IMG/VR virus record: IMGVR_UViG_3300043446_003993 | Location: 1-23,781 of that record | DNA length: 23,781 nt | From: a virus | Direction: 5' to 3' (one strand) | Shown here: piece by piece, positions 1 to 22,096 of the stretch | Layout: every line of letters starts with the position of its first letter | Numbering within the stretch: position 1 is the first letter of the stretch | Notes under the pieces: generated by a model | Seen by the model: the letters and a program-made list of their open reading frames with translations, nothing else | The model's database searches: none | What the model was told of the DNA's origin: nothing | Program-made: the position numbers and the translations under genes

Positions 1-303
1 TCTGCTACTCAAACCTCTATGTAAGTATTGGCGAGTAGAAGATTCATTTGGTGTTTCGCTAGAACCTCGAACAGTCAACATGTCCTGTTCAATTTCTACA
101 GCGATTTCGTGCTTTTTAAATCCAGCCACTGCAATTTCTATTACATAGTGTGTGTCATCAGTCTTGACAACATTGTGTGGGGGATAGTTTGTAGTCAATT
201 GATTTGCAAAACGTGCTTCGAATCCATCGAACAGTCTGTCAAATCCTACTAGTGCTCTATTTAGAGCCTGCGTATCAAAACGAGTCATAGTTCCATTATT
301 CAT
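1..303 (-). CDS. Hsp20/IbpA-type small heat-shock protein (3' end cut by window edge)
   Basis: The reading frame stays open from the ATG at 303 to base 1, giving 101 residues with no stop, so the C-terminus lies outside the window. The N-terminal arm (residues 5-38, FDTQALNRALVGFDRLFDGF and following) and the start of an alpha-crystallin domain (YPPHNVVKTDD, VIEIAVAGFKKHEIAVEIE, LTVRG) match IbpA-like sHsps, which hold unfolding proteins as ATP-independent holdases and pass them to DnaK. A good Shine-Dalgarno (AAGGAG) lies 7 nt before the ATG. It is the last gene seen in the dnaK-groES-groEL block and shares a leader box with dnaK and groES. The family call is firm; the true length is unknown. 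Confidence 0.88.
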   Translation of the reverse strand, partial: MNNGTMTRFDTQALNRALVGFDRLFDGFEARFANQLTTNYPPHNVVKTDDTHYVIEIAVAGFKKHEIAVEIEQDMLTVRGSSETPNESSTRQYLHRGLSSR

Positions 304-308
304 AATTT

Positions 309-327
309 TCTCCTTAATTAAGCAAGA
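309..327 (-). promoter_or_regulatory. Shared chaperone leader box upstream of hsp20
   Basis: The minus strand reads TCTTGCTTAATTAAGGAGA, ending in the Shine-Dalgarno of hsp20. The same 19 nt occur before dnaK (4255-4273), and an 18-nt variant occurs before groES (2325-2342). The palindrome CTTAATTAAG overlaps the Shine-Dalgarno, and UCUU at the 5' end can pair weakly with GAGA or AGGA. Identity is seen directly; a regulatory role is inferred. Confidence 0.55.
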
Positions 328-332
328 ATAGT

Positions 333-371
333 GTATGCGGCCTCACCCGAGCACCGCATACTTATTTATTT
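333..371 (-). promoter_or_regulatory. Late-promoter-like box plus hairpin in the hsp20 leader
   Basis: On the minus strand an AAATAAATAAG box (371-361) resembles the T4 late promoter core TATAAATA. It is followed at once by an 8-bp inverted repeat, GTATGCGG (361-354) and CCGCATAC (340-333), with a 13-nt loop. The region lies between the groEL stop and the hsp20 start. The stem lacks a following U-run, so a 5'-end stabilising or leader hairpin is more likely than a terminator. Confidence 0.4.
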
Positions 372-399
372 TACAATGTCTGTGTGTTTAAGTCAAATA

Positions 400-2031
<1,632 letters not shown>

Positions 2032-2319
2032 TTATTCGACAATAGCTAGAACATCATCTTCTTTAAGAACAATGTGTTCTACATCGTTAACTTTAACAGT
2101 CTGTCCGGCATACTTTGTATACAGTACAGTATCCCCTTCTTTAATAGACAAAGGTAATACTTTACCATCTTCTGTAACTTTGCCTTTGCCTACAGCAAGT
2201 ACTTTACCTTGTTGTGGTTTTTCCTGTGCATTATCAGGAATAAAGATACCGGCTTTAGTTACAGTTTCACTGTCTAAAGGTTTAATAATGATTCTATCAT
2301 GTAATGGTTTTAATTGCAT
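2032..2319 (-). CDS. groES: Co-chaperonin GroES (Hsp10)
   Basis: The 95-residue length is typical for bacterial GroES, the heptameric lid of GroEL. The N-terminal [13 protein letters not shown], the mobile loop around residues 17-32 ([17 protein letters not shown]) carrying the GroEL-binding GIFI segment, the [10 protein letters not shown] strand and the YTKYAG and DDVLAIVE C-terminal motifs are all present. The start is set by AAAAGGAG 7-8 nt upstream. It precedes groEL in the usual order. A terminator-like hairpin separates it from dnaK upstream, and its leader carries the shared chaperone box. Known phage lids (T4 gp31 type) are highly diverged, whereas this one is plainly of bacterial GroES type. 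Confidence 0.98.
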
Positions 2320-2324
2320 TTTAA

Positions 2325-2342
2325 TCTCCTTTTAAAGCAAGA
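2325..2342 (-). promoter_or_regulatory. Shared chaperone leader box upstream of groES (variant)
   Basis: The minus strand reads TCTTGCTTTAAAAGGAGA. It differs slightly from the 19-nt box before hsp20 and dnaK but sits in the same place, ending in the Shine-Dalgarno. Its presence before three different chaperone genes suggests common post-transcriptional control or recent duplication of the leader. Confidence 0.5.
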
Positions 2343-2370
2343 AAAATTGGGGGCCTTTTAGAGCACCCCC
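2342..2370 (-). terminator. Terminator-like hairpin between dnaK and groES
   Basis: On the minus strand GGGGG (2370-2366) pairs with CCCCC (2353-2349) across a 12-nt loop, with a possible U-G closing pair, followed by AATTTTT. This fits a modest intrinsic terminator or attenuator that would lower groESL expression relative to dnaK. The short stem allows read-through. Confidence 0.5.
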
Positions 2371-2380
2371 TTAAAGATGC

Positions 2381-4249
2381 TTAGGTAGCCTCTGTTACCT
2401 CAGCATCAACTATACCGTCAGCTTTGTCCTTTTCTTTAGCCTCTTTGGCTTTACGAACAGGTTCAGTTGCGGCTAGTAAATCGCTCAATGTTTGAGTGAC
2501 TTTATCCTTATCGTTGGCATTGGCAGCTTCTTGGAAGTTCTTGATAGCTTCTTCAATCTTATCTTTTTCTTCCTGGCTTAGTTTGCTTTCAACTTCGCTT
2601 AGGTCCTTACGGATAGAATGTATCTGTGCTTCTGCCATATTGCGAGTTTCAATTTCTTCGCGTTTCTTTTTATCGTCTTCAGCATTAGCTTCGGCTTCTT
2701 TGACCATACGATCAATTTCTTCACTGCTAAGTCCGCTATCACTTTTGATAGTGATCTTGTTTTCTTTGCCAGTATTTTTATCCTTAGCACTGACATGCAT
2801 AATGCCATTAGCGTCAATGTCAAGGGTAACTTCAATTTGTGGAGTTCCACGTGGAGCAGGATTAATACCTTCTAGGTTAAATTCACCTAATAGTTTATTA
2901 TATTGTACTAGCTCACGCTCGCCTTGGAAGACTTTAATAGTCACAGCTGGCTGGTTGTCGTCGGCAGTTGAAAATATTTGTTGTGCTTTAGTTGGGATAG
3001 TTGTATTCTTTTGAATTAACTTGGCCATAATGCCGCCCATAGTTTCGATGCCAAGGCTTAACGGTGTAACGTCTAACAGTAAAACATCATTACGGTCACC
3101 TGCTAGAACAGCACCCTGAACTGCGGCACCTGCAGCCACTGCTTCGTCAGGGTTAACATCTTTGCGTGGTGCTTTGCCAAACAGTTTTTCAACTATTTCT
3201 TGTACCTTGGGCATACGTGTCATGCCACCAACTAAGATAACTTCGTCAATGTCTCCAGCAGTCACACCTGCGTCTTTCATTGCTGTCTTGCAAGGCTCAA
3301 TTGACCGCTGAATTAATTCATCCACTAGGTTTTCTAATTTAGCACGAGTTAATTTAATGTTCATGTGCTTAGGACCTGTAGCATCAGCAGTTACGTAAGG
3401 TAAGTTAACATCAGTTTGAGCACTGCTTGACAATTCAATCTTGGCCTTTTCAGCGGCTTCTTTTAGACGTTGTAGTGCTAGAACATCTTTGGTAAGATCA
3501 ACGCCAGTGTCTTTCTTGAACTCATCAATCAAGTAGTCCATAATACGCTGGTCAAAGTCTTCACCGCCGAGGAATGTATCACCGTTAGTAGACAACACTT
3601 CAATTTGCTTGTCGCCGTCAACATTGGCAATTTCAATAATGCTAACGTCAAATGTACCACCACCTAAGTCGTACACAGCAATTTTACGATCCTGTTTGTC
3701 AGCTTTATCAACACCGTAGGCTAATGCGGCTGCGGTAGGTTCGTTGATAATACGCAGTACTTCTAAACCAGCAATTTGTCCAGCGTCTTTAGTAGCTTGA
3801 CGTTGTTGATCGTTAAAGTAAGCAGGAACTGTAATAACTGCTTTGGTAACTTCTGTGCCCAAGTAGTCTTCAGCAGTCTTTTTCATCTTACGTAGCACTT
3901 CTGCTGAAATTTGTGGGGGTGCTAGTTCTTTTTCATTTGCACGTACCCATGCATCGCCGTTTTTAGATTCCATAATCTCATATGGCATTAGGTCAATGTC
4001 TTTTTGTACAGCCTGTTCTTTAAACTTGCGTCCAATTAAACGCTTGGCTGCATAGATAGTGTTTTTGGGGTTTGTAACAGCTTGTCGTTTTGCTGAAGCG
4101 CCAACGAGGATCTCATCATTAGCATAGGCAACAATACTAGGTGTAGTACGAGCACCTTCGCTATTTTCAATTATTTTGGGAGTTCCGTTTTCGATGACTG
4201 CAACGCAGCTATTGGTAGTACCTAAATCGATACCGATGACTTTGCTCAT
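2381..4249 (-). CDS. dnaK: Molecular chaperone DnaK (Hsp70), full length
   Basis: The 622-residue protein is close to bacterial DnaK (638 aa in E. coli), the ATP-dependent chaperone that works with DnaJ and GrpE. The nucleotide-binding domain shows [13 protein letters not shown] at the N-terminus, [10 protein letters not shown] with the catalytic lysine, [32 protein letters not shown] and [14 protein letters not shown]. The interdomain linker and start of the substrate domain are [15 protein letters not shown], followed by an intact beta-sandwich and a charged helical lid. The tail ends [12 protein letters not shown], like bacterial DnaK tails. No dnaJ or grpE lies in the window, so it may use host co-chaperones. 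The start has AAGGAG 7 nt upstream. Given the iscU nearby, a role in Fe-S transfer (as for HscA) is possible but unproven. Confidence 0.98.
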
Positions 4250-5100: not shown

Positions 5101-5775
5101 ATGGATATCATATCCCTTGAATTCTTATGGGCACTCTTGGCCATCATTTTAATCGATGTAGTGCTAGGAGGAGAGAATGCCCTTGTTATAGCAATGGCTG
5201 CTAAACAACTACCCGAACACCTGCGTAAACGTGCTATGGTTTGGGGTACATTTGGTGCAGTAGCAGTTCGATTTGTCTGTGTAGCCGCGCTGACTTATCT
5301 GCTAATGATCCCAGGACTGCGGCTAGTAGGAGGTGCGTTACTAATTTGGATAGCATGGAAACTTACAGCAGGAAGCAATGATCATAAAGATATAAAAGCT
5401 GCCACTACATTTTGGGGTGCAATGGGTACTATAGTAATGGCAGACGCTGTCATGGGCTTAGACAATGCACTAGGTATTGCGGGTGCGGCTGGAGGCAACT
5501 GGATTTTGATCATTGCAGGATTATTAATCAGTGTTCCTATTATACTTTTTGGAAGTACTATAGTTTCACGTATACTTGATAAATATCCTAGCGCAGTTTA
5601 CATAGGTGCATTTGTACTGTACTATGTAGCAGGTAATATGATTATGCATGAGCCTTTTATCGATGAGTGGAATGATCCATTACACGATATTCTTGAAAAA
5701 TCATTACCGTTTATTGCAGCAGTATTATTAACTGCTAAACAATATTACCGTTTTGAAATAAGGAAAAAGAAATGA
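5101..5775 (+). CDS. terC: TerC-family integral membrane protein (YkoY/YjbE type), likely Mn2+ exporter
   Basis: The 224-residue protein has about seven hydrophobic segments and the TerC signature acidic motifs inside membrane helices: DVVLGGENALVIAMA near residue 20 and DAVMGLDNALGIAGAAGG near residue 120. TerC-family members such as Alx, YkoY and YceF export Mn2+ or help metalate exported proteins. The Mn2+ riboswitch directly upstream supports the metal role. AAGGA lies 6-7 nt before the ATG. The stop overlaps the ATG of the next small gene (ATGA), so the two are translationally coupled. It is one of the few plus-strand genes. The family is certain; metal specificity is inferred from the riboswitch. 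Confidence 0.93.
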   Translation: MDIISLEFLWALLAIILIDVVLGGENALVIAMAAKQLPEHLRKRAMVWGTFGAVAVRFVCVAALTYLLMIPGLRLVGGALLIWIAWKLTAGSNDHKDIKAATTFWGAMGTIVMADAVMGLDNALGIAGAAGGNWILIIAGLLISVPIILFGSTIVSRILDKYPSAVYIGAFVLYYVAGNMIMHEPFIDEWNDPLHDILEKSLPFIAAVLLTAKQYYRFEIRKKK

Positions 5776-11405: not shown

Positions 11406-11738
11406 GTCGTTTGGTAAAGTTCTAGAAACCGTTTCTAACATCTCGTCCCAATCCATTTGGCTAAGACGTTCTCCAAGTTCTAGCACACAATCTTCGGCTT
11501 TTTCGTAGTCTTCTATGCCTAATAATTCGTAAATTTCTTGACGGCTAACATTTTCTGAACGCATGTGGCATACCCACAACACTGTAACAAAAGCCAATCC
11601 AAATATTTTTTCCTGGCTCCAAATTCCATTGGTTTCACACCATTCTATTGTTCGATTAAGATAATAATCTATGTCTTCAACTCTATTTTCCAACTGTGCT
11701 ATCCAATATTGTGTATCTTCTCTGCTCCAATATTTCAT
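11403..11738 (-). CDS. Unknown protein at the end of the isc operon
   Basis: The 111-residue, mostly helical, acidic protein (KYWSREDTQYWIAQLENRVEDIDYYLNRTIEW at the start; LGIEDYEKAEDCVLELGERL later) was not recognised. Its ATG overlaps the stop of iscA (ATGA), so it is translationally coupled to the Fe-S genes. It has one WCE and one WVCHM cysteine region, not a clear cluster site. Position suggests a link to Fe-S handling, but nothing in the sequence proves it. Confidence 0.68.
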   Translation of the reverse strand: MKYWSREDTQYWIAQLENRVEDIDYYLNRTIEWCETNGIWSQEKIFGLAFVTVLWVCHMRSENVSRQEIYELLGIEDYEKAEDCVLELGERLSQMDWDEMLETVSRTLPND

Positions 11739-12055
11739 ACCCTAAAACTTTCACCGCAACCACATCGGTCACGCTCATTTGGATTGCGGAACTCAAATCC
11801 TTCATTAAGGCCATTCCTTACCCAATCCATTTCAAGTCCAGTTATGTAGGCTGTACTTTTGGCATCTACATATACATGAACACCCTGCGATTCAAAAATA
11901 CAATCTCCTTCAAATATTTTATCTACATACTCAAGAACATAGGCAAGTCCCGAGCATCCAGTAGTTTTAACTCCTATCCGAATACCTAGGCCCTTGCCTC
12001 TTTTTTGTAGTTGTTGTTTGATCTTTCCTGCTGCCGCCTCAGTTAACGAGATCAT
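11735..12055 (-). CDS. iscA: A-type Fe-S carrier protein (IscA family)
   Basis: The 106-residue protein has the full A-type signature: Cys34 in TTGCSGLAY and Cys98-Gly-Cys100 near the end (RCGCGESF), equal in spacing to E. coli IscA (Cys35, 99, 101). A-type carriers move Fe-S clusters from scaffold to client proteins. It begins inside the iscU 3' end (17-nt overlap) and is coupled to the unknown gene downstream. All cluster ligands are intact, suggesting a working protein. Confidence 0.95.
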   Translation of the reverse strand: MISLTEAAAGKIKQQLQKRGKGLGIRIGVKTTGCSGLAYVLEYVDKIFEGDCIFESQGVHVYVDAKSTAYITGLEMDWVRNGLNEGFEFRNPNERDRCGCGESFRV

Positions 12056-12428
12056 GCTTTTTCTTATAATCTTCTATAGCAGCTTTAATTGCATCTTCAG
12101 CAAGGATTGAACAATGTATCTTTACCGGCGGAAGAGCAAGTTCTTCAGCAATCTGTGTGTTTTTAATTGTACCCGCTTCTTCCAGCGTCTTACCTTTGAC
12201 CCATTCTGTGACCAAACTACTGCTCGCAATAGCACTACCACAACCATAAGTTTTAAAGCGAGCATCTTCAATAATTCCTTCTTTAGTCACCTTTATTTGT
12301 AATTTCATTACATCACCGCAGGCAGGTGCTCCTACCATACCTGTACCTACGGATTCATCACTCTTGTCAAAACTACCAACATTGCGAGGATTCTCGTAGT
12401 GATCGATAACCTGACTTGAATATGCCAT
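12039..12428 (-). CDS. iscU: Fe-S cluster scaffold IscU
   Basis: The 129-residue protein matches IscU with unchanged numbering: Cys37 and Asp39 (GAPACGD), Cys63 (YGCGSA), His105 and Cys106 (IHCS), and the chaperone-binding motif LPPVK at 99-103. IscU assembles Fe-S clusters using sulfur from IscS; an Hsp70 (HscA) binds LPPVK to release the cluster. No iscS, hscA or hscB is in the window, so host partners, or the phage DnaK, may serve. AGAGG precedes the ATG. It lies 4 nt after the his-rich gene in one operon with iscA. Confidence 0.96.
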   Translation of the reverse strand: MAYSSQVIDHYENPRNVGSFDKSDESVGTGMVGAPACGDVMKLQIKVTKEGIIEDARFKTYGCGSAIASSSLVTEWVKGKTLEEAGTIKNTQIAEELALPPVKIHCSILAEDAIKAAIEDYKKKHDLVN

Positions 12429-20157: not shown

Positions 20158-20167
20158 GATATTTAGC
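20158..20167 (-). promoter_or_regulatory. Late-promoter-like box of the tail spike gene
   Basis: GCTAAATATC on the minus strand resembles the T4 late core, 18 nt before the spike ATG. Late expression fits a structural gene. It lies in the end of the nuclease gene. Confidence 0.4.
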
Positions 20168-20852
20168 TGTTTAATCTATAGTATTCGCTTACCCTATCAC
20201 ACCAGCGTTCTGTCCAGTAATCAAAGTCCTTAGGTTCTAGCACAAATTCTTGATACTCGTAGTCTTTGCTACACATTAAAATAACACCCTTGCGTATATT
20301 AGTTCCGTGTACTTCATTGTGTGCTAGAGCATAGGCTGTTAACTGTAAGAAGTAGTCATCAATCCACTCACGCTTTTTAGGTTTGTTAGTCTGTTTAAAG
20401 TCTAGTATACTTTGATCGCCTTGATGTACGCCCACGCAGTCAGTAGTTCCCGCATATAGTTCTGGAAAGTATAGAGGTACTTCGCTGCCCCATACTTCAT
20501 CTACAAAGGCCAAGCCGTGTGTAATAACTTTACGAGCCATTACTAGACTTTGTTGTGCATAAGGATTAGTTACGGTTTCAGGAAGTTCTTCTCCCTTGAT
20601 ATAACGCTCAAGGAAAGTATGCATACGTGTTCCGCGACTAGCAGCTTCAGTTACAATTTCTTGTGCCTTAGCTTCTCCAACTGCGGCTTTCCAACGGGCT
20701 AGTGCTTCTCGAGCTTCTGCTGGTTTGGTTTTATCTAAGATAGTAGTTACTGACGGAACTTTGTGACCTTCGGGCGTAGCATAAAGTCTACGCCCAGTTG
20801 AATCATCTCTAGATAGTGGTTTGTATTGATAACGTTCGATTAATAATGCCAT
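20163..20852 (-). CDS. PD-(D/E)XK superfamily nuclease (RecB/Cas4-like)
   Basis: The 229-residue protein has the RecB-like order of motifs: GTRMHTFLERY with His78, Glu124, Asp138 (GTTDCVG), Asp151-Phe-Lys153 (ILDFKQT) and Gln170-x3-Tyr174 (LQLTAYALA). This is the pattern of metal-dependent DNA exonucleases. It lacks the four-cysteine Fe-S cluster of Cas4 and AddB. It probably acts in phage recombination or host DNA breakdown. A perfect sigma70-type promoter lies just before it, and the ATG is 5 nt after the -10 with no ribosome site. Confidence 0.85.
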   Translation of the reverse strand: MALLIERYQYKPLSRDDSTGRRLYATPEGHKVPSVTTILDKTKPAEAREALARWKAAVGEAKAQEIVTEAASRGTRMHTFLERYIKGEELPETVTNPYAQQSLVMARKVITHGLAFVDEVWGSEVPLYFPELYAGTTDCVGVHQGDQSILDFKQTNKPKKREWIDDYFLQLTAYALAHNEVHGTNIRKGVILMCSKDYEYQEFVLEPKDFDYWTERWCDRVSEYYRLNS

Positions 20853-20857
20853 GATAC

Positions 20858-20886
20858 ATTATATAGTATCTACAGCACTATGTCAA
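20858..20886 (-). promoter_or_regulatory. Sigma70-type promoter of the PD-(D/E)XK nuclease
   Basis: TTGACA (20886-20881), 17-nt spacer, TATAAT (20863-20858) on the minus strand match consensus exactly. The -35 contains the stop of the upstream frame. The ATG begins 5 nt downstream of the -10, implying a leaderless transcript. Confidence 0.82.
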
Positions 20887-21203
20887 CCTGGTTGTTGAAG
20901 TGTTTTAGCCGCAGCACGTTTGGCGCTAGGTGCCGCATTAGATTTATCTGTTGCGGTTGGTTCTGGCTTTTCTTTGGTTTTAAGTGTTATACCACGGCCG
21001 TCAAACTGTTGTACAATATTTTTTAGTTGTGGTAGTTGATCAAACTCTGCTTTGAATGTTTCGTAGTCCATTTCTGTACCACTCATGTTCTGTAGCATAT
21101 TAGATATAGCTTCCCAACTAAATTGGGCAGGAACACCTTTTGAATTTGCTCTAGATTGAAGTTGTAGAAGGATGCGGATTAAGTTATCCGCATCTTCCGT
21201 TAC
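20883..21203 (-). CDS. -1 frame extension of the upstream virion-type protein
   Basis: This frame has no ATG before 21098, yet it stays open and reads as protein from the slippery A-run onward (VTEDADNLIRILLQLQSRAN, then FSWEAISNMLQNM). The helical pattern continues across the internal Met, so starting at 21098 would cut 35 coding-like residues. The likely product is a fusion made by -1 frameshifting: 298 residues plus this 106-residue extension, about 404 in total. The tail is Lys/Ala/Pro-rich. Alternatives are an independent 71-residue protein from 21098, or a homopolymer error splitting one gene. Function unknown. Confidence 0.72.
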   Translation of the reverse strand, partial: VTEDADNLIRILLQLQSRANSKGVPAQFSWEAISNMLQNMSGTEMDYETFKAEFDQLPQLKNIVQQFDGRGITLKTKEKPEPTATDKSNAAPSAKRAAAKTLQQPG

Positions 21204-21212
21204 TTTTTTTTT
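21171..21212 (-). other. Programmed -1 ribosomal frameshift signal (A AAA AAG slippery site plus hairpin)
   Basis: The minus strand has nine A then G (21212-21203), read in frame as AAA AAA AAG and then TAA. It contains the heptamer A-AAA-AAG (21209-21203), the same as in E. coli dnaX. After an 8-nt spacer comes a perfect 9-bp stem, GATGCGGAT (21194-21186) and ATCCGCATC (21179-21171), with a 6-nt loop. The zero-frame stop follows the heptamer directly; the -1 frame continues for 106 codons. Confidence 0.78.
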
Positions 21213-22096
21213 GGTTGACTTAGTATTGTGCCTAGTTTACGGCTATACTCGATTGATTCTCTTTTTGCACGGCCTGCGGCTTCTTCTCCGCCAGCTGCTG
21301 GTTCAGCAGCGGCAAACTGGTCAGGAGTTGGCATTTCTTCTGCACCCATCGAAGCAGATGCTGTCATATCAGGTGCGCCTGCTGGGCCTTCTTCACCTGT
21401 TAGGATTGCTACAGATTGTGCTAGTGTTGTACGTGTAGTTTCTAATGCTGTATATAAGTCTTCTAATGCTGGTTTAGCTGAGCCAGCAAATTGACTGCTA
21501 ATGTCTGAGCCTAATTCATCTCTTATAGAGTCTTCTAATTCTAGCATTGCTTCAGCTTTGAGCTGAGCAACATCTTCTAGCCATCCTGTTACTTTATCAA
21601 CCATATCACGAGCACTCATGATTAAGGCTGCTTTTTCTTCTTCGCCTTCTGTTAGGGTTCTTTCTGATAGGACAGAGCGTAGCACATCCATGGCCTCTTC
21701 AATACTTTCTTTCTTAGCCATCTTTGTAGCTGTTGCGTGCATTACTTCTTCGCCTTTGTCGCCATAACGCTTTTTAAACTCGCCTGACTTTTTCTTCATG
21801 CCTTTTACATACTTTTCTTTCTTTGCTTCTTCGCCTGGGCTTAGTGTACGCTCTGAAATTGCTTGTGTAATGACATCTAGGAACATACGATCTTTTTGGT
21901 ATTCGTTGCTTTCATAAACAGCATCATACTCGCGGCTGCTTTCAAATTTAACAATCTTGTCTGCAACACGGTCACGAGCAGCCTGTAGCTGTTCCATAGT
22001 AAACTTATCTAAGTTTAACTTATAACCAAATTTTTGAGCCATACTCTCGTTAAGAGTTGTACTGGTTTTTGGATGCGAAAGTTCTCTGATTTGCAT
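21200..22096 (-). CDS. Virion-associated type protein, zero-frame product of a frameshift gene
   Basis: The 298-residue protein is mostly helical and charged in its first two thirds (LTMEQLQAARDRV-like, then KKEKYVKGMKKKSGEFKKRYGDKGEEVMHATATKMAKKES near residues 92-130) and Ala/Gly/Pro-rich later (about 235-275). Two similar units contain AISERTLSPGEEAKKEKYV and VLSERTLTEGEEEKAALIM, an internal repeat. The GMKKKxxxFKKRYG and VMHATATKMA motifs recur in structural or prohead-type proteins of marine T4-like phages as I recall. It ends QPKKK at the slippery site. Exact role, such as scaffold or internal head protein, is not known. GATAAATAAAC lies upstream as a late box. Confidence 0.8.
   Translation of the reverse strand: MQIRELSHPKTSTTLNESMAQKFGYKLNLDKFTMEQLQAARDRVADKIVKFESSREYDAVYESNEYQKDRMFLDVITQAISERTLSPGEEAKKEKYVKGMKKKSGEFKKRYGDKGEEVMHATATKMAKKESIEEAMDVLRSVLSERTLTEGEEEKAALIMSARDMVDKVTGWLEDVAQLKAEAMLELEDSIRDELGSDISSQFAGSAKPALEDLYTALETTRTTLAQSVAILTGEEGPAGAPDMTASASMGAEEMPTPDQFAAAEPAAGGEEAAGRAKRESIEYSRKLGTILSQPKKK

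Follow-up and report, generated by a model that had tools for sequence, protein, structure and literature searches.

Comparison with relatives shows that a gene on the minus strand of this phage DNA carries a conserved -1 recoding signal and that the -1 frame behind it is under selection. We consider it likely that ribosomal -1 frameshifting gives rise, from a single start, both to a protein that we call z and to a minor fusion of two head proteins, in which z is joined to an extension that we call ext; the comparative evidence for this is strong, and no product has been observed. The window, by which we mean the whole stretch of DNA analysed, is virus record IMGVR_UViG_3300043446_003993, positions 1 to 23,781 (23,781 bases).

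The z/ext locus and its slip site

The zero-frame open reading frame of z (21200..22096; this and all other features of the locus lie on the minus strand) encodes 298 aa plus stop, a helical protein of virion or head type that is a distant homologue of GAP32_293. Its 3' end reads CCA AAA AAA AAG TAA, a slippery run (21203..21212) of nine A at 21212-21204 and a G at 21203, which holds the in-frame heptamer A AAA AAG (21209-21203) and, overlapping it from one codon further 5', A AAA AAA; the zero-frame TAA (21200..21202) stands immediately 3' of the slip site. A spacer of 8 nt (21202-21195) leads from the heptamer to the presumed stimulator, a stem-loop (21171..21194; GATGCGGAT-AACTTA-ATCCGCATC) whose arms at 21194-21186 and 21179-21171 form a perfect 9-bp stem (9/9 pairs) closed by a loop of 6 nt (21185-21180). 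For the 81-nt stretch the folding energy is -19 kcal/mol, compared with a shuffle mean of -6.96 (z-score -5.26), and none of 200 dinucleotide shuffles folded as low as the native sequence. In the -1 frame, ext (20883..21203) is open from its GTA codon (21203) as far as the stop (20885-20883), giving 106 residues plus stop, with a predicted winged-helix domain and a low-confidence C-terminal tail; the predicted length of the fusion is 298 + 106 = 404 aa. The first ATG, or other start codon, of this frame lies 35 codons in, and the ext domain is easily overlooked because a plain ORF listing of the window makes just a 71-aa fragment of it visible. The next gene (20163..20852) encodes a PD-(D/E)XK exonuclease (phrog_298), a syntenic anchor common to named jumbo phages.

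An earlier note, made from the sequence alone, had claimed a -1 frameshift signal at 20883-22096, consisting of nine A and a G with A-AAA-AAG in frame, a TAA next to it, an 8-nt spacer and a 9-bp stem with a 6-nt loop, together with a -1 frame open for 106 codons, without ATG for 35 codons, and a long form of about 404 aa. All of these elements are present on the minus strand, and these claims held. Its further claim, that one gene makes short and long forms of a virion-type protein, is supported by the comparison, the basis being the slippery run, the zero-frame stop, the selected -1 frame, covariation within the clade and the virion-protein counterparts of both halves, with the product itself not observed. 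Beyond that note, we found that the two halves are separate genes in named relatives and that a protease-type motif lies at the junction.

Elsewhere in the window, positions 1-4249 hold a chaperone set consisting of Hsp20-like (truncated where the contig ends), GroEL (539 aa), GroES and DnaK (622 aa) genes; the Hsp20-like, GroES and DnaK genes are what we take them to be from their sequences, and GroEL turned up in 3 of 16 related phage contigs when these were searched for the Cpn60 family. There are also what we take, by eye, to be genes for a TerC-like membrane protein and IscU/IscA-like iron-sulphur proteins (5101-5775, 11735-12428) and, further on, nrdA/nrdB and glutaredoxin-like genes.

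The recoding layout is conserved in relatives

Searching viral contigs with the z protein yielded 51 loci, and searching with ext yielded 10, every contig of which had also been reached by z. Three zero-frame alignment searches confirmed 583/599, 549/599 and 567/600 candidate stretches, from each of which the best 80 were kept, a limit that leaves more distant relatives unseen. All of the 299 loci examined, many of them sharing contigs, had a z match, and 297 had a zero-frame stop; the 193 distinct gene sequences formed 129 clusters at 90% aa identity, two genes cut by contig ends being left out. All relatives' contigs were thereby reached by z, with no need of ext.

The frameshift layout, that is, a run of A8-A10, a zero-frame stop and an open -1 frame, was found in 127 of the 129 clusters (126 by an automatic rule, plus L212, for which the rule was misled by a second downstream copy), while in the other two, L264 and L300, ext is a separate gene. 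The run is A9 in 113 of these 127 clusters, A10 in 11 and A8 in three, and the base that follows is G (112), T (11) or C (4); the zero-frame stop is TAA in 107, TAG in 17 and TGA in three. An in-phase A AAA AAN heptamer is present in every one (A AAA AAG in 110, A AAA AAC in four, A AAA AAA alone in 13). Past the stop, the -1 frame runs for 96-132 codons in the 127 clusters, the exception among 188 distinct frameshift-type genes being L244, with 63 codons. Of the 126 clusters whose contigs extend far enough, 122 have the exonuclease gene downstream of ext at a distance of no more than 2.5 kb, and 84 at no more than 400 nt. Among 64 candidate stretches from genome_contigs, two loci showed the layout as well, in MAGs that bear the titles Rickettsiales and Neomarinimicrobiota. 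The earlier note had proposed homologous loci as a check, and in these the slippery run and the open -1 frame are kept (127/129 clusters) and the stem covaries within the window clade; relatives fused in one frame without a slippery site, which by its account would have refuted the reading, are not what the 129 clusters showed.

In the relatives, purifying selection acts on the -1 frame. Pooled pS was 0.646 and pN 0.220 (120 of 251 available cluster pairs), with a median pairwise ratio of 0.17 (31 pairs gave none), while the same DNA read in the other two frames gave pS of 0.33 and 0.31 and pN of 0.36 and 0.36 (33 equal-length pairs only).

Some lineages vary the layout. Two in-frame slippery sites precede one zero-frame stop in L252, L255-L260, L262, L263, L267, L270, L271 and L277, one of them an A9G 25-28 nt upstream and the other an A AAA AAG right at the stop. 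About 1.2 kb downstream of its first z stop, L212 has a second, apparently near-identical copy of the z C-terminus and ext, possibly a tandem duplication or an assembly artefact. A tree of the 129 z proteins (quick method, midpoint root) sets L300 beside the frameshift lineages L261 and L296 with a support of 97, and for this reason the frameshift was likely lost in L300; L264 sits on a very long branch and its placement is unsure. Around the z stop of L300, ext has its own ATG and a leader, MRVSEILKE, resembling a T4-type capsid-targeting sequence; given that ext has its own start there, free ext seems viable.

RNA structure 3' of the run

Among 26 sequences picked from the window clade (a 27th, L086, was excluded for its shorter loop), the stem is formed in 97.4% of cells. 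Compensatory changes affect five of the nine stem pairs, and there are 18 doubly changed cells compared with 4.7 in shuffles (0/500 as high); when the stem was slid as a control, pairing fell to 31-42%. Across the 127 clusters, the 60 nt past the run had a mean fold z-score of -2.09, compared with -0.47, -0.23 and -0.25 at three control places, and the score was below -2 in 50% of clusters, compared with 12, 6 and 5%. Without the window clade, the mean was -1.55 (controls -0.49, -0.25 and -0.27) and 40% of clusters were below -2 (controls 13, 4 and 6%). Hairpins of at least 7 bp were found in 63/127 clusters, and in 37/100 outside the window clade, compared with 202/1270 control windows. As far as local structures go, to which this analysis was confined, a hairpin is thus frequent but not universal in the family, and half of the clusters lack a significant one.

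Two-gene counterparts in named jumbo phages

Using blastn and tblastn with three family members, we found no relatives among named phages; these were located via the neighbouring exonuclease and a core-domain search. The core-domain query gave nine records, seven of them jumbo phages at E 0.04-0.3, which were taken up on synteny, z then being confirmed by profiles. The nearest named relatives are the T4-type jumbo phages GAP32, CBB, 121Q, RaK2 and PA5oct. GAP32, CBB, Hallingskeid, XbC2, Kaldavass, RaK2 and 121Q all have two adjacent genes upstream of the exonuclease, in the z/ext position, and both are annotated as (virion) structural in six of the seven, the second gene of XbC2 being hypothetical; PA5oct has a similar gene pair, annotated with ESI-MS/MS notes. 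In CBB, virion mass spectrometry recovered 10 peptides of CBB_298 and two of CBB_299 (PMC5259590 Table 4). These GAP32_293/GAP32_294-type pairs (CBB, 121Q, RaK2, PA5oct) resemble the window in lying beside the exonuclease gene, in the homology of their z halves, and in a small second gene whose short leader ends in [I/L]TE (LVE in PA5oct), like the start of ext. They differ in being two genes with their own starts and in lacking an A8-A10 run where the first gene stops; at that place RaK2 and 121Q have A6, which, unlike the run in the window family, is not an in-phase A AAA AAN.

That z is the counterpart of the GAP32_293-type genes is shown by homology and synteny. Its profile matched the GAP32/CBB/121Q/RaK2/PA5oct family with an hhalign prob of 98 (E 2e-13), the match beginning around L-T-E followed by G, which aligns to L-T-E followed by S in the named-phage family. 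PHROGs gave partial matches to phrog_12788 (unknown function, 4.3e-9), phrog_14154 ('virion structural protein', 2.8e-7) and phrog_727 (unknown function, 3.5e-7), and Pfam gave nothing over cut-offs for z or ext. The AlphaFold2 model of z is all-helical (mean pLDDT 78.3, pTM 0.44), with a low-confidence linker at residues 146-149 (pLDDT < 50). The L024 group has a large variable insert in z, at residues ~90-250, with a KPDFLDMDKDGDKKEPMKKA-like acidic, EF-hand-looking stretch.

For ext, the evidence is of a different kind. A winged helix, with the order H-E-H-H-H-E-E, is predicted by the AlphaFold2 model, in which mean pLDDT per 10-residue block is 84-95 for residues 1-80 and 47-53 after; the C-terminal tail contains an A-x-R-A-A motif. 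PHROGs had no match for ext, and Foldseek against the PDB gave none with E <= 0.001, the lowest E being 0.023 and winged-helix domains accounting for many of the 50 weak PDB matches; against a viral library, the best matches were uncharacterised proteins of uncultured phages (E 3.1e-5). In sequence, ext bears only a weak likeness to the family of GAP32_294 (hhalign prob 5%, E 0.008). An hmmsearch with filters off against a handful of proteins gave E values of 0.0045 for CBB, 0.006 for GAP32, 0.009 for RaK2, 0.021 for Hallingskeid and 0.25 for 121Q, and no match to the PA5oct second gene (E 1.6). At the same time, ext and the second genes agree in position, in a T-E start, in a C-terminal A-x-K/R-A motif and, by eye, in helix-strand order. 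We therefore regard ext as the likely counterpart of the GAP32_294-type genes, the sequence evidence being weak alone and supported by synteny, the [I/L/V]-x-E start and the helix-strand order.

The junction motif

The first three ext codons of the window (21195..21203) encode V-T-E, followed by D, a putative prohead-protease site. [V/I/L]-x-E occurs within the first 14 ext residues in 126 of 127 clusters, compared with 2.3% of 14-residue windows elsewhere in ext, and within the first six in 115/127, compared with 0.8% of control windows; L103 is the only cluster of the 127 without it near the junction (VMREERDP). The residue after the Glu is A in 43, G in 25, S in 19, D in 18 and another in 21. 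P3 is most commonly V (83/126), not the L or I reported for T4, and its codon overlaps the zero-frame stop in 111/126 clusters, the remaining 15 keeping the motif nearby. Because the overlapping stop almost forces P3 to be V, I or L, the independent signal at the junction is mainly the Glu, which is one of three invariant columns in a 56-sequence ext alignment. In the two-gene counterparts, where no overlapping stop forces it, [I/L]-T-E follows a short leader in 6/6 aligned sequences; other starts of the junction type are L-V-E in PA5oct and L-K-E in L300, and the separate ext of L264 (MRFAEFQSDAVSD) has no [V/I/L]-x-E at its start.

A second putative protease site, L-T-E followed by G151 (z codons 148-150, 21647..21655), lies in the predicted flexible linker of z. 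This internal [V/L/I]-x-E motif followed by G precedes the core domain, with V, L or I at P3 in 110 of 112 scored clusters (17/129 were left unscored by the pattern), and E150 is invariant in a 52-sequence alignment.

In T4, gp21 cuts after L/I-x-E, and internal proteins have N-terminal targeting propeptides of 10-19 residues that are removed (PMC9026906). A survey of 11 related contigs and three named phages, not including the window, found Peptidase_S77 and Gp23 capsid genes in 3/11 family contigs (364.6, 357.6 and 330 kb), and Peptidase_S77 with a Gp23-type capsid also in all three named phages (GAP32, 121Q and PA5oct); the other eight family contigs (66-275 kb, completeness unknown) had no Peptidase_S77 match. 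In four capsid proteins (from one family contig, GAP32, 121Q and PA5oct), L-x-E stands before SATAGA/SATSGA/NASAGA. On balance we lean towards the start of ext being a cut site of the phage's own gp21-type prohead protease, which is an inference, as cleavage has not been shown.

Discussion

In the mechanism that we propose, most ribosomes would end at the TAA after the A run and release the 298-aa z, while a fraction would slip back one base on A AAA AAG, aided by the stem-loop 8 nt downstream, and append the 106-aa winged-helix ext to make the 404-aa fusion. Since z and ext match two separate virion-protein genes of T4-type jumbo phages, we infer that the slip would set the fusion-to-z ratio during head assembly. 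And since ext begins with a gp21-type [V/I/L]-x-E, the fusion may well carry ext into the prohead on z and then be cut at or near the junction, a step that is inferred and for which the balance of evidence tips only slightly in favour.

The rival that deserves most attention is transcriptional slippage, in which the A9 run would gain an A when RNA polymerase transcribes it, and the lengthened mRNA would be read straight into the fusion. In its favour, A9 is kept in 113/127 clusters, more than the A6G that the heptamer needs; the first A of the run is the last base of a codon in 122 clusters, and the ninth A is kept while the residue encoded there changes (Ser in 108, Pro in 10, Gly in two, Leu and Arg in one each, five amino acids in all); and the phase of the run is a different one in two A9 clusters. 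Against it stand the stem that in the window clade covaries and follows the run at a spacing suited to the ribosome, the single phase of 114/116 A8/A9 runs (which shared descent could also explain), three clusters with A8 only, and the two overlapping heptamers given by A9, which would equally favour A9 for the ribosome. An argument that an A6-only group rules out transcriptional slippage was dropped, as that group has A9G further upstream. This rival is unlikely, though not excluded; from the position of the stem, its covariation and the phase of the run we infer that the ribosome rather than the polymerase slips, and the fusion is inferred to be minor, with the frequency of slipping unmeasured.

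Termination and re-initiation, by which the -1 frame would be expressed separately and not as a fusion, could draw on an ATG within 12 codons of the -1 frame in 13/127 clusters (nine as TAATG), on an ATG, GTG or TTG there in 26/127, and on L300 and L264, which carry ext as a gene with its own ATG. Yet none of these codons is found there in 101/127, the first start codon of the window is 35 codons in, inside the predicted domain, and the conserved slippery run would be without a role, making this very unlikely. Also improbable is a pair of tail assembly chaperones like lambda G/GT, where a short form is likewise accompanied by a long one made by frameshifting (PMC5009743). Lambda-type tail assembly chaperones are not known to occur in virions and lie next to the tape measure; here, counterparts of both halves are found in CBB virions, the genes of GAP32, CBB, Hallingskeid, XbC2, Kaldavass and 121Q lie between the replicative helicase and NrdA, no tape-measure gene is annotated in that stretch of those six phages, and there is no chaperone family match in PHROGs or Pfam. 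Finally, a one-base homopolymer error, named by the earlier note as the main alternative, or a decayed gene might be suspected with an A9 homopolymer in a metagenome assembly, but is excluded by the relatives: the same layout occurs in 127/129 clusters, the -1 frame is under purifying selection, and 11 A10 lineages still keep the zero-frame stop, so that an A9/A10 error cannot account for the pattern.

Ribosomal frameshifting, the preferred reading, has several parallels. E. coli dnaX shares the heptamer, A AAA AAG, and it too has a stimulatory element on the 3' side (PMC5009743). In dnaX the short product is the one made by frameshifting; in the window, whose slip site adjoins the zero-frame stop, it would be the long one. 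In the frameshifts of phage major head proteins (T7/T3 gene 10, Lactobacillus A2, Listeria phages), some of the molecules of a structural protein gain a C-terminal domain through a -1 (or +1) shift, as proposed here (PMC5009743), but z belongs to another gene family and is not a major capsid protein, ext is a predicted winged helix unlike the Ig-like domain of T3/A2, and the window junction has a protease-type motif. Lambda G/GT likewise combines a short form with a low-level -1 fusion, as we propose for the window, whereas the window's counterparts are virion proteins with no tape-measure neighbour annotated. Retroviral Gag-Pol is a minority frameshift fusion that is packaged via its upstream part and cut by the viral protease; this is an analogy only, without homology, as ext is not a known enzyme and its cleavage has not been shown.

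A bolder reading, as likely to be wrong as right and not excluded, is that the locus is a DNA phage counterpart of Gag-Pol, in which a fixed minority of the carrier head proteins would bear a winged-helix internal head protein as a fusion, and the cut site would be encoded by the slip site itself. The NTA codon (Val, Ile, Leu) overlapping UAA/UAG would supply the hydrophobic P3 of the protease motif, one short stretch serving as slippery site, stop codon and protease site, and lineages such as L300 would have re-split the fusion, giving ext its own start and the targeting-like leader.

Frameshift-made C-terminal extensions of phage structural proteins are already known (PMC5009743, PMC10885494). 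In agreement with the earlier note, which knew of no frameshift for this gene type, we found no description of one in the z/ext family in the open-access literature searched, most subscription papers being outside its scope; nor was a prohead-protease motif at a frameshift junction described there, including the parts consulted of PMC9026906, PMC7247149, PMC5259590, PMC10885494 and PMC5009743. The locus represents a large class of programmed frameshifts that, in T4-type phages, have apparently gone undescribed, in a family known here only from uncultured contigs. Its natural variation (A8/A9/A10 runs, three stops, displaced sites and two-gene lineages) amounts to a ready evolutionary experiment. 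If the junction is indeed cut, these phages would combine frameshifting and proteolysis to load a winged-helix protein into the head at a set dose.
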